Shown one piece after another: positions 40,599 through 44,954 of a stretch of 64,000 nt of DNA. Origin of the DNA: Acidisarcina polymorpha (lineage in GTDB: Bacteria; Acidobacteriota; Terriglobia; Terriglobales; Acidobacteriaceae); contig NZ_CP030840.1 of NCBI RefSeq assembly GCF_003330725.1, positions 1,054,001 through 1,118,000 of the forward strand. The letters run 5' to 3'. The translations under genes were made by a program, and so were the position numbers. Below the pieces are notes generated by a model. That model saw nothing but the letters and a program-made list of their open reading frames with translations, did no database searches and was not told the DNA's origin. How positions within the stretch are numbered: the first letter of the stretch is position 1; every line of letters starts with the position of its first letter.

Positions 40599-41093
40599 CT
40601 ACGATTCTCGGCTATTCACCCGGCGCTGCAGCCGCGCGATCACGAGTTCCGGAACCAGCCCATCAACCGAACCGCCTAACTGAAAGACTTCCTTCACCAA
40701 TCGCGAGCTCACAAACGAATACTTCGCCGCCGGCATGAGAAAGACGGTTTCCAATTCAGGAGCCAATCGCTGGTTCATCAATGCCATTTGCAGCTCGTAC
40801 TCATAGTCACTGATGGCGCGAATGCCGCGCATGACCGCTTGCGCTTGCTGTTCACGGGCGAAGTCGACAAGCAGCCCGTCGAATGCCGCCACGGAAACGT
40901 TACCAAATCCGGCAACGCTCTCAGTCAACATCTCCACCCGTTCAGGCACACTGAAGAGCGCGTGTTTTGCGGAATTCTTCAGCACGGCAACGACCAGATG
41001 GTCGAAGATGCGAGACCCGCGCGCAATCAGGTCAAGGTGACCATGCGTCATCGGGTCGAAGCTACCGGGATAAATTGCTTTTACTTTGTCCAA
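40599..41093 (-). CDS. coaD: Pantetheine-phosphate adenylyltransferase CoaD
   Basis: 164 residues, the usual length. The nucleotidyltransferase motif GSFDPMTHGHLD holds His17 and His19, and the second motif is SSRLVKEVF-like (SSRLVKEV). GIRAISDYEYELQMALMNQ is the family stretch around the pantetheine pocket. It joins ATP and 4'-phosphopantetheine in the penultimate step of coenzyme A synthesis. The downstream end is convergent with the antiporter gene. It lies 51 bp from recA (same strand, downstream of it) and might be read from the recA transcript. Confidence 0.95.
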   Translation of the reverse strand: MDKVKAIYPGSFDPMTHGHLDLIARGSRIFDHLVVAVLKNSAKHALFSVPERVEMLTESVAGFGNVSVAAFDGLLVDFAREQQAQAVMRGIRAISDYEYELQMALMNQRLAPELETVFLMPAAKYSFVSSRLVKEVFQLGGSVDGLVPELVIARLQRRVNSRES

Positions 41094-41144
41094 AGAGAGG
41101 TTCGCTCAATCGCGATTGTACGAATGCTCTCCCCGGGACGCAAT

Positions 41145-42227
41145 TCAGCTGCTACGACGCGCTGCCGGCCTGACGACTTCCGCAGCCGCGGCGGCTCCAT
41201 TCACCGGAATTGCGGGAACCTCGCTTGCTGGCAAGTTCACCAGTCCAAGCTTCTTACGCAACTCTGTATCGATGTTGGTGAAGGTGTCGCGGTGCTCCTT
41301 CAGATATTGCCGGACGTTCTCCCGTCCCTGCCCGATGCGCTCGCCGGCGTAGCTATACCAGGCGCCGGACTTTTCGACGATATTTTGCGCCACCGCCAGG
41401 TCGAGAACATCGCCTTCGCGCGAGATTCCCTCGCCATAGAGAATGTCGAATTCCGCCTCGCGGAAGGGCGCGGCCACCTTGTTCTTCACAATCTTGACCT
41501 TGGTACGCGATCCAACCACGGCATCGCCTTCCTTCACCGCAGCGATCCGCCGGATATCGATGCGCACTGAGGAGTAAAACTTGAGCGCGCGACCGCCGGT
41601 AGTTGTCTCGGGATTCCCGAACATCACTCCGATTTTTTCGCGGATCTGATTGATGAAGATAAGACTGGTGCGCGACTTTGAGACTGTCCCGGTCAGCTTC
41701 CGCAGTGCCTGCGACATCAGTCGCGCCTGCAGGCCCATGTGCGAATCGCCCATCTCGCCATCGAGTTCCGCCTTGGGAACAAGAGCAGCGACAGAGTCCA
41801 CCACCAGCACGTCGATTGCACCCGAACGGACGAGCGCTTCGGTAATCTCAAGCGCCTGTTCGCCATAGTCGGGCTGCGAAATGAGCAGGTTGTCGATATC
41901 GACGCCCAACTTACGCGCGTAAAGTGGATCGAGCGCATGTTCGGCATCCACAAACGCCGCGAGGCCTCCATGCTTCTGTGCCTCCGCGATGATTTGCAGC
42001 GTAATCGTGGTCTTGCCTGAGGACTCTGGCCCAAAGATTTCGATCACTCGGCCACGCGGAACTCCGCCAACGCCCAATGCCGCGTCGAACGAGATCGATC
42101 CGGTAGAGATCACGGAGATCGGCACGATCGCTTCTTTGCTGCCCAGGCGCATAATTGAGCCTTTGCCGAATTGCTTTTCGATTTGCGATAGCGCCAGTTC
42201 TACTGCGCGAGCCCGATCATCCGCCAC
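41145..42227 (-). CDS. recA: Recombinase RecA
   Basis: 360 residues. Walker A is GPESSGKT (66-73), and the core segments include [36 protein letters not shown] and the L2-region [27 protein letters not shown]. It starts with GTG at 42227 (GGAG 9 nt upstream). RecA catalyses strand exchange and triggers LexA self-cleavage. A possible sigma-70 promoter lies at 42332-42360, giving a leader of about 98 nt. I saw no E. coli-type CTGT-N8-ACAG LexA box in that leader. Confidence 0.97.
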
Positions 42228-42331
42228 GTCAAATTCTCCGATCTTCGTTTTTTCTTCGTATTCTCAATGTAGCGCATTTTGGAACGCACAGAGCAGAGAG
42301 TACCTCCGCGAGCACGTGTATTTGCGCTGTT

Positions 42332-42360
42332 TATAAAAATAGTTGTGGAAACTTGGACAA
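42332..42360 (-). promoter_or_regulatory. Candidate sigma-70 promoter for recA
   Basis: On the minus strand, TTGTCC (42355-42360) is separated by 17 nt from TTTATA (42332-42337). The start site would be near 42325. The match is good in spacing and imperfect in sequence. Confidence 0.5.
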
Positions 42361-42447
42361 AGTCTAGCATTCAGTCGGGCGGGAGATGCAGAGTATCCTA
42401 CGGCTGCAAGCGACTGTTGACCCGAAATGGGAGGCTCACCAATTTGC

Positions 42448-44025
42448 TCACCGCTTCAGCAAATCAATTGGCTCGGTTACATCTCGGATCCGAAAATATT
42501 TTGCCAGGGAGGGATGCTGTCGCGCCACCGCCTTGTACATCTCCCACGCAACCCGTCGGTAAGAGAAGTGCCCCTGCGGAGTACTCCGCAGCTCTGAGAT
42601 ATAAAGCGCTTCAGCAAAATCCATTTTAAACAAGGCGCGAACTCGAGTGCCTAGAGGCAAAACATATTGGGCCGAGGCATCCGCGACCTTGTTTTTCAAA
42701 TTTCGATAGGTTTCATGGGCGGCTCCGATCGTAAGGCGATAGCCGGCGCCGAAGCCTGCCTCCTCCAGAAACTCGGGGAAGTCATACCCGTGCAGGTGCG
42801 TAAACGGCTGCAGGATTTGCGTACACTTGCGATGACGATGCATATCGCGAAAGCCGCCAATATCCATCAGGATGTCGAATCGCAGCGTCTGTCCGGCGGA
42901 GAATTCGCGCAGCAAATCATCGTGACGGCCGCGGTGCCGCAAGCCAAGATCGACGATCTCGTTGCGGCGCGCCTCCGGCAACTGAGTAACGCAATCCCTG
43001 ATCTGCCGGTAGGAATAATGGGAAGCGCCGTAGAGCAAGGTCGCGGCGAGTTCGACTTCCAGAGGCTCGTCGCGTTCAACCAGGTCGACAACCGGAGCGG
43101 GGTCAATCGGAGCCTCTGCCATTAGTTCCTGAGCGGCTTGCTCCAACTCCCGGCGAGTCGCGAGGGCATAGTCGCTTGGAACTGCATACTTTACCAGCGT
43201 CGGCGCAACCTTCACATCGCGCGTCAGCAACTCGGCCGCTCGCGCGCCAAGTGATGGATCAGCGGCAGCGATCTCGGCTTGCAAGGCTGCAAGCTCCGCG
43301 CCGTGCACATTCCAGGCCGCTCCTGAAGCAGCATCTCGCAGCTTCTCTCCCAGCTGTCGTACTTCCTCGTGCGGATCCGAGAGCAGTCGCGAAATCTGCG
43401 TTTCGAGGGTCCGCGCATTCACTATTTGTCCCAGCGAAGTATTCGTCGCCAGCGGCAGCAGGTAGCGGGCAACATCAAATGAGCGCGCCTTCAGGGTTCG
43501 CTCATAAGCGTCGGCCTTCATCTCCTCCGGCTTCGGCGTGGTGCTCTTGAAGTACTCCAGCATCGCCTGCGAGGTTCCGTGATAGCGGCTGAACAGCAAC
43601 TCGATCGCCGACGAATATTGCTCGCGGGCTTCAGTATCGAGGCCAAAGTCGGGCAGATACCAACCGCCCTTCAGGAAGTTCTGATAGCGGGTCGAGCGCT
43701 CTTGTCCATCCCAACGCTGCTCATCCACCAGGGCGATGGCCGCGAGCAGCGATAAGCGTTCAATCGCAAAGGCTACATGAGCTAAATCGGCAATTGAGCG
43801 ATGCCCATACTGGAAATAGAAGGTGTTGAGAAATTGCTCGGCGCGCTGACTGCTGATCTCGCGAAGGGATTGCTTCATCGATAGCGAGGAACGCGAGTAT
43901 TTCGCCATTGCGTAGGCGAGCACTTCCGGGTCGGCCCCGTGGATCGCAAAGACTTCGGTGCGATTTTCGGCGTGCTCCCCGGCGGGAGCGGCTGACGGTC
44001 CAGACGGCGTAATATGGGTGGGCAT
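42448..44025 (-). CDS. Two-module ThyX-like FAD-dependent thymidylate synthase homologue
   Basis: 525 residues, twice the usual ThyX length, from ATG 44025 (the frame extends to 44196 but the added part is not protein-like). The N-terminal module has the ThyX signature region YGHRSIADLAHVAFAIERLS (73-92), but the RHR-x7-S-x-RY flavin/dUMP motif is degenerate (DEQRWDGQERSTRY, 101-114). The C-terminal module has MHRHRKCTQ (RHR at 397-399) and a matching tail. It may be an active enzyme with one working module or a specialised relative. It is divergent from the DUF2071 gene. No canonical thyA was seen nearby. Confidence 0.7.
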   Translation of the reverse strand: MPTHITPSGPSAAPAGEHAENRTEVFAIHGADPEVLAYAMAKYSRSSLSMKQSLREISSQRAEQFLNTFYFQYGHRSIADLAHVAFAIERLSLLAAIALVDEQRWDGQERSTRYQNFLKGGWYLPDFGLDTEAREQYSSAIELLFSRYHGTSQAMLEYFKSTTPKPEEMKADAYERTLKARSFDVARYLLPLATNTSLGQIVNARTLETQISRLLSDPHEEVRQLGEKLRDAASGAAWNVHGAELAALQAEIAAADPSLGARAAELLTRDVKVAPTLVKYAVPSDYALATRRELEQAAQELMAEAPIDPAPVVDLVERDEPLEVELAATLLYGASHYSYRQIRDCVTQLPEARRNEIVDLGLRHRGRHDDLLREFSAGQTLRFDILMDIGGFRDMHRHRKCTQILQPFTHLHGYDFPEFLEEAGFGAGYRLTIGAAHETYRNLKNKVADASAQYVLPLGTRVRALFKMDFAEALYISELRSTPQGHFSYRRVAWEMYKAVARQHPSLAKYFRIRDVTEPIDLLKR

Positions 44026-44132
44026 GGGCGACCTCAGAATACGGCATTCTGCTCTGTGAAAACCCGGCGGCCCTTTCCGCTTTCTTAGGAGGCAGGGTTT
44101 ATCCTGCTCTTTCGGCCCAGAATAGAGAGCGG

Positions 44133-44954
44133 ATGACTTCATCAGACGAGAACGAAATTCTCTCCAGCGTCGGACACCGTCCCTGGCCTTTGCCACAGAC
44201 GCGTTGGGTGATGACCCAGCGCTGGAACGATCTGCTTTTCGCTCATTGGCCGCTGCCGGCTACCCAGATCTCCCGGCTGCTTCCGGAAGGGCTGGCGGTC
44301 GATACCTTCGACGGCTCTGCCTGGGTAGGGGTGGTGCCGTTCTGGATGGATCGGGTCCAAATTCGCGGGATGCCCCTGGTTCCGGGGGCTAATCGCTTCC
44401 CTGAACTCAACCTTCGCACCTATGTTCGCGAAGCCGACACTAACGTCGCCGGCGTCTACTTCTTCTCGCTGGATGCCGCCAACCCCGCGGCTGTCGCGGC
44501 GGCGCGCCTGTTCTTCCACCTGCCGTATTACTGGGCCAAGATGAGTATTCAGCATCAAGGCAAGGACGAATTTCACTACTCGAGTGAACGCCGGCTGAGT
44601 CGACGACCGGTGCGATTTCAGGCGCAGTATCGAGGTCTTGGACGGATGAGCAACCTCGATCAAAGCCGTCCTGGAACCATCGAGCATTTCCTCACCGAAC
44701 GTTATGCTCTCTATACCACTGGTGCTCGCGGGCAGTTGCTTCGAGGCAACATCCATCACCTGCCGTGGCCGCTCGAGCTGGCCGAGGCCGAGTTTCATAC
44801 CAACGAATTGCCGGCTGCCCATGGCATCGAACTGCCGGATACGGCTCCGCTTCTGCACTATGCCCGCGAACTCGTCGTGTACGTGTGGTCGCTCGACCTG
44901 GCGCCAAGCCTGTTGAAACACCCCTCCGTCGCTGCGGTTCCGGAGCCGCTTTAG
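44133..44954 (+). CDS. DUF2071 family protein (YqjF-like)
   Basis: 273 residues. The family begins at MTQRWNDLLFAHWPLP and includes RLLPEGLAVDTFDGSAWVGVVPFWMDRV, FPELNLRTYVRE and GVYFFSLDAANPAAVAAARLFFHLPYYWA. DUF2071 proteins are soluble, of unknown function, and belong to the acetoacetate-decarboxylase-like fold group. The ATG at 44133 is not preceded by a clear ribosome site. It is divergent from the ThyX-like gene, with 107 bp between their starts. A strong hairpin with A/T-rich arms follows the stop. Confidence 0.85.
   Translation: MTSSDENEILSSVGHRPWPLPQTRWVMTQRWNDLLFAHWPLPATQISRLLPEGLAVDTFDGSAWVGVVPFWMDRVQIRGMPLVPGANRFPELNLRTYVREADTNVAGVYFFSLDAANPAAVAAARLFFHLPYYWAKMSIQHQGKDEFHYSSERRLSRRPVRFQAQYRGLGRMSNLDQSRPGTIEHFLTERYALYTTGARGQLLRGNIHHLPWPLELAEAEFHTNELPAAHGIELPDTAPLLHYARELVVYVWSLDLAPSLLKHPSVAAVPEPL

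Follow-up and report, generated by a model that had tools for sequence, protein, structure and literature searches.

A tandem ThyX-like protein of Acidisarcina polymorpha with the ThyX motifs divided between its two halves

ThyX, the flavin-dependent thymidylate synthase, is a studied antibacterial target whose site lies between subunits, so that one mutation in the homotetramer affects every role of the site together; in the canonical protein, RHR and SxR are parts of a single contiguous motif within one domain. Herpesvirus dUTPase is alike in principle, being a duplicated and fused chain in which the motifs of one site are shared between the halves, and differs in that its fold and enzyme are unrelated to ThyX. 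The ThyX of Chlamydia trachomatis was reportedly studied enzymatically by Griffin in 2005 and may be double-length; if it is, a doubled ThyX has already been published as active. According to an excerpt of PMC3498832, the chlamydial protein has been used in an assay. In ThyX crystal structures, as described in the excerpted part of PMC6514825, three subunits build each site, and the RHR/arginine set and the serine/SxRY sets come from different subunits: in the Mycobacterium tuberculosis enzyme, subunit A supplies RHR (95-97) and Arg199, subunit B supplies Ser71 and Arg190, and subunit C supplies Arg87, Ser105, Arg107 and the lid residue Tyr108. These residue numbers match the sequence of the PDB chain. 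A domain-duplicated ThyX, called uncharacterised, was described in Chloroflexi by Valas and Bourne in 2009 (PMC3224940, in excerpt), and the Acidobacteria row in the accessible table of a 2018 review (PMC5954106) is taken here as ThyX in 6/6. In this work, we describe a double-length ThyX-like protein encoded on the minus strand of a 64,000-nucleotide stretch of the Acidisarcina polymorpha genome (contig NZ_CP030840.1, positions 1,054,001 to 1,118,000; this whole stretch is called the window).

We consider it likely that the window protein serves its cell as the flavin-dependent thymidylate synthase, in a form that is both tandem and asymmetric. Canonical ThyX (M. tuberculosis 3gwc, Thermotoga maritima 1o26) has the fold predicted for both halves of the window protein, whereas the latter is of double length and has its signature split between the halves; the contiguous one-domain motif is not found in it, its parts lying on separate halves. 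Apart from Arg87 and Arg190, every residue of the canonical site has its equivalent in one half or the other, and two working sites per assembly would be expected instead of four. The duplicated ThyX of Chloroflexi has two domains per chain, as the window protein does, and the excerpt of PMC3224940 is silent on a divided site. The duplication itself is already known; in the literature searched (open-access and a few subscription journals), no account was found of the complementary division of motifs or of its meaning, and mention of a duplicated ThyX was found, in the accessible parts of the open-access literature, only in PMC3224940.

The frame starts with an ATG at 44025 and ends with a stop at 42450..42448, which confirms, on the minus strand, the 525-residue protein of the first-pass annotation. 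An in-frame GTG upstream at 44196 would give an alternative product of 582 amino acids, and the plus-strand reading of 42448..44025 is interrupted by stops. A frame artefact was rejected: of the 41 genomes searched, the organism's own and those of relatives, 37 match the gene, some of them partly or weakly, and the matches have no internal stops. The Thy1 (PF02511) profile scores 115.7 bits against a cut-off of 24.8 and covers two stretches of the protein, both halves bearing the signature, while the ThyA profile (PF00303) has no match in the 525 residues. A phmmer search with the single protein against PDB sequences returned nothing at E 1, whereas a profile search did match PDB sequences. 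The features of the gene are as follows.

42448..44025, minus strand: tandem ThyX-like protein, 525 amino acids, stop codon included (frame, Thy1 profile, alignment and predicted model).
43168..43974, minus strand: half 1, residues 18-286, predicted ThyX fold (Z 10.9-11.1 to M. tuberculosis ThyX, root mean square deviation (rmsd) 2.3-3.0 Å over 165-174 residues, in the predicted model).
42460..43101, minus strand: half 2, residues 309-522, predicted ThyX fold (Z 10-11.6 to Corynebacterium glutamicum, M. tuberculosis and T. maritima ThyX, in the predicted model).
43795..43809, minus strand: YGHRS, residues 73-77; Ser77, invariant in 37/37 rows, aligns to M. tuberculosis Ser71 (subunit B role, after the excerpt of PMC6514825).
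43684..43701, minus strand: ERSTRY, residues 109-114; Ser111, Arg113 and Tyr114, invariant in 37/37, align to Ser105, Arg107 and Tyr108 (subunit C role, same excerpt).
43465..43467, minus strand: Arg187 of half 1, present in 37/37, aligns to M. tuberculosis Arg172; the matching place of half 2 is not conserved.
43411..43419, minus strand: NAR, residues 203-205; Arg205 aligns to Arg190 (subunit B role), with Arg in 28/37 first halves and 25/37 second halves.
42829..42837, minus strand: RHR, residues 397-399, invariant in 37/37 alignment rows and 157/157 doubled proteins (subunit A role, same excerpt).
42586..42588, minus strand: Arg480, invariant in 37/37, aligns to M. tuberculosis Arg199 (subunit A role).

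According to an AlphaFold2 model built from a 37-row alignment (mean predicted local distance difference test, pLDDT, 88.2; predicted template modelling score, pTM, 0.89), the 525-residue chain consists of two homologous ThyX-fold domains. The internal duplication proposed in the first-pass annotation is borne out by the two Thy1 stretches together with the modelled ThyX fold of each half; a second half of another fold would have spoken against it, and as the alignments of half 2 to experimental ThyX structures reach Z 11.6, the duplication reading stands. A fusion of two unrelated domains was rejected, both halves aligning with ThyX structures. The model of a second, distant class of doubled proteins (class II, the window protein belonging to class I) also has ThyX-fold halves, its half 2 by way of a single match row (2cfa, Z 11.0).

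The division of the site residues was followed in 157 doubled proteins, namely the window protein, 46 class I and 27 class II proteins from Thy1 or whole-protein searches, 80 named loci and 3 phage loci, and in alignments of 37 of the 47 class I proteins (A1) and 24 of the 27 class II proteins (A2). YGHRS and RSTRY, which had been noticed in the first half, and RHRKCTQ, noticed in the second, were found at residues 73-77, 110-114 and 397-403. RHR is present in half 2 of all 157 proteins, and none has [RK]HR near the site in half 1 (within the 16 residues before SxR[Y/F]), where SxRY is found in 156 and SxRF in one (L087, class II). Eighty of the 157 were found by a scan whose single pattern included SxRY, so the motif is guaranteed in these named loci; the other 77 (the window protein, 73 loci from Thy1 or whole-protein searches and the 3 phage loci) were not chosen by SxRY and have the same division. 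A single second half among the 157, that of L096, has STRY shortly after RHR, which is taken as chance. In the single-domain loci of the phylum, [RK]HR and SxRY lie within one domain in 30/30. Across the 37 class I rows, half 1 never varies at the equivalents of S71, S105, R107, Y108 and R172; in half 2, the columns aligned to S105, R107, Y108 and R172 are not conserved, and RHR and the R199 equivalent are invariant. Class II follows the same order: in 24/24 rows, half 1 carries the S105, R107, R87 and R172 equivalents and half 2 carries RHR and the R199 equivalent. The Y108 equivalent is found in 23/24 class II first halves (Phe in one), and Thr stands at the S71 place.

The first-pass annotation had spoken of split or lost function. 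Split fits better than lost, because each half keeps the motifs that the other is missing, in both doubled classes. As the division of motifs follows the subunit roles of the ThyX crystal structures, complementary specialisation around a composite site is a better reading than loss. A low thyX equivalog score and the absence of part of the motif from each half could also be expected of a decaying, functionless duplicate; this explanation is barely credible, as 17 columns, located in both halves, are invariant among 37 sequences whose identities go as low as 21%, the same division recurs in Chloroflexota, Bacillota, candidate phyla, Woesearchaeota and phages, the relatives' matches are free of internal stops, as noted above, and the genome would be left without a known source of thymidine monophosphate (dTMP). 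In another reading, dTMP is made by half 2 alone as a homo-oligomer, and half 1 serves as scaffold or regulator. Half 2 does keep RHR and the Arg199 equivalent, but it is without the serine, arginine and tyrosine of SxRY, which half 1 has in 37/37 class I rows, and changes of S88, R90 or Y91 in T. maritima ThyX cause large losses, according to the excerpt of PMC8316439; we regard this reading as unlikely.

In the composite arrangement that we favour, half 2 would take the part of subunit A, offering RHR for flavin adenine dinucleotide (FAD) and deoxyuridine monophosphate (dUMP) and an arginine near the uracil, while half 1 would take the parts of subunits B and C, with the GHxS serine and an SxRY segment that would bind dUMP and form the tyrosine lid. 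Judging from the sequence and the published structures of relatives, each working site would draw its A part from a half 2 and its B and C parts from first halves. A pseudo-tetramer made of two chains would have two sites that work and two that are dead, unlike the four equal sites of the homotetramer, which would have been turned into a dimer of fused, specialised halves. By established ThyX chemistry, the methylene of methylenetetrahydrofolate (CH2-H4folate) would pass to FAD and on to dUMP, with hydride from reduced nicotinamide adenine dinucleotide phosphate (NADPH), and the products would be dTMP and tetrahydrofolate (H4folate), dihydrofolate reductase (DHFR) not being needed.

The genome of the organism (7.6 Mb, 96.4% complete) was searched for other sources of dTMP. 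The two halves are the sole Thy1 matches of the whole genome, in which ThyA (PF00303), thymidine kinase and DHFR have no match and a dTMP kinase was identified. A second thyX or a thyA, for which the first-pass annotation had advised looking, was therefore rejected, the profile searches of the whole genome having found neither. The window protein is probably the only thymidylate synthase and dTMP source of this bacterium, and the earlier doubt as to whether it makes dTMP appears largely answered by this genome context. A ThyX-fold enzyme with another job, either methylating another pyrimidine nucleotide like PolB of Streptomyces cacaoi or being non-essential like the ThyX of C. glutamicum, seems quite improbable: such proteins are among the structure matches by title (4p5a, 3fnn, 3ge9) and the thyX equivalog cut-off is missed, but the genome search found no other known thymidylate synthase and no thymidine kinase, the dUMP-contact residues are conserved, and genomes with Thy1 and with full-length ThyA never coincide in the phylum sample.

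This last comparison covers 149 phylum genomes, of which 114 have Thy1 and 39 have PF00303; 29 of the latter encode full-length ThyA (E 6.6e-92 or better), with an overlap of 0 between the 29 and the 114, and the remaining 10 PF00303 matches are partial, at 28-88 bits, over the Pfam cut-off. Neither Thy1 nor full-length ThyA was found in 6/149. DHFR is present in 45/149 genomes, including 29/29 with ThyA, and in 4/75 judged to have a doubled ThyX (strong in G071, weak in G089, G101 and G162); since ThyX chemistry has no dihydrofolate product, the scarcity of DHFR in doubled-ThyX genomes fits. The 75 are the 77/149 genomes with two Thy1 matches minus G083, whose gene is cut by contig ends, and G134, with an apparent intein; 57 of their proteins are in our sample (55, plus that of G008 as L014, plus the window protein), and 18 lie outside it. 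Four genomes of one genus of the phylum (G075, G122, G150 and G159, at least 93% complete) have no Thy1 and weak partial PF00303 matches, and perhaps carry a divergent thymidylate synthase.

The doubled form is also found in phages, and PHROGs lists it as phrog_36506, in the thymidylate synthase family. Class I relatives occur in phages of Tunturiibacter, Vibrio and Microcystis (16 records, one covering at least 80% of the query). The protein gp020 of Microcystis phage Ma-LMM01 (491 amino acids, phrog_36506) is like the window protein in its double length and division of motifs, and differs in being a remote phage gene product, with 30% identity over 61%; gp50 of Tunturiibacter phage Tunturi_5 shares the double length and the division at 46.5% identity over 97%. 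In Tunturi_5 (L188), a large acidobacterial phage of 308,711 bases, the doubled ThyX adjoins a dCMP (deoxycytidine monophosphate) deaminase, and a dUTPase is near. Among 67 viral loci, found through patterns of which one included SxRY, the same division is seen in 55, SxRF with RHR in two, and a fragment of 186 residues in one.

Several observations weigh against the proposed enzyme and its composite site. The NCBIfam thyX equivalog TIGR02170, the model by which thyX is named, gives the doubled protein 52.4 bits, under its cut-off of 87.9. Full-length Foldseek superpositions on single ThyX chains have an rmsd of about 12-18 Å, and parts of each half may therefore be placed otherwise than in a lone subunit. 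The division is also not clean at every residue: the Arg190 (B) equivalent is found in 28/37 first halves and 25/37 second halves, the Arg87 (C) equivalent in 14/37 class I first halves, and an arginine of half 1 (29/37) may face Arg199. The first-pass statement that half 1 has lost the RHR core holds for the motif as a whole but not for each of its residues, as most class I first halves have an Arg aligned to the third one. In 9/67 viral loci (L228, L232, L235, L244, L245, L246, L247, L248 and L253), RHR of half 2 is replaced by RHN, and half 1 has SxRY. Four of the 41 related genomes have no match to the gene, one of them being 90% complete; six Thy1 genomes (G061, G100, G110, G149, G167 and G183) have a weak partial PF00303 match; and thymidine kinase is present in 10/15 sampled genomes of the window's family, so that thymidine salvage is possible for many relatives.

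The distribution of named relatives was read from the best 80 of 572, a scope that holds for the rest of this paragraph. Those with 58-73% identity bear names from Terriglobia (Acidobacteriota), and class I is also found in Chloroflexota, Bacillota (Tumebacillus, Sulfobacillus), Uhrbacteria, Yanofskybacteria and Woesearchaeota. The Chloroflexota relatives of this class (L171-L173, L175, L178 and L180) may differ from the proteins of PMC3224940. Two contigs of metagenome-assembled genomes titled Rhodanobacteraceae and Rhodoferax (L132, L162) carry an acidobacterial-type gene at 63-64% identity and are possibly misbinned.

In a tree built from the halves of 35 doubled proteins together with 12 of the 30 single-domain ones, the class I first halves form one clade (100/98) and the class I second halves another (100/99); class I therefore derives from one fusion. 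For class II, constraint tests rejected neither the grouping of all first halves together (p 0.498) nor that of the two class II halves together (p 0.467). A more speculative proposal, which we rate as possible though doubtful, is that an obligately asymmetric ThyX, its A-role residues on one fused half and its B- and C-role residues on the other, arose independently at least two times (class I and class II), the halves being ordered alike, and that the two non-catalytic pseudo-sites per assembly have been reused, for example in regulation.

The doubled ThyX is a real, conserved variant of a known enzyme. If the composite reading is true, the roles lie on separate halves, each could be altered alone, and the number of sites needed, of the four, would be revealed; it would also show clearly how duplicated, fused copies can specialise in complementary ways, in what appears to be the sole dTMP source of its host.

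The gene lies between recA (42227..41145, minus strand) and a DUF2071 gene (44133-44954, plus strand), in the region 40599-44954. These neighbours are partly conserved: in flanks of up to 3 kb around the 80 named loci, DUF2071 is found at 36, recA at 27, coaD at 16 and a GMC oxidoreductase at 0. Rfam has no match in the window at gathering thresholds.

Two ThyX genes of the comparison carry inserts. A single-domain ThyX of another acidobacterium (L066:1011-3086, minus strand) has an apparent intein near RHR, with Thy1 in two pieces; Intein_splicing scores weakly there (33.2 bits, cut-off 35.8), and an HNH endonuclease is matched as well. In G048, the doubled ThyX (L086:2-2287, plus strand) is enlarged by a long insert that immediately precedes the GHxS serine of half 1; Pfam finds Thy1 only in this protein, and from its letters the insert reads like an intein with homing-endonuclease motifs.
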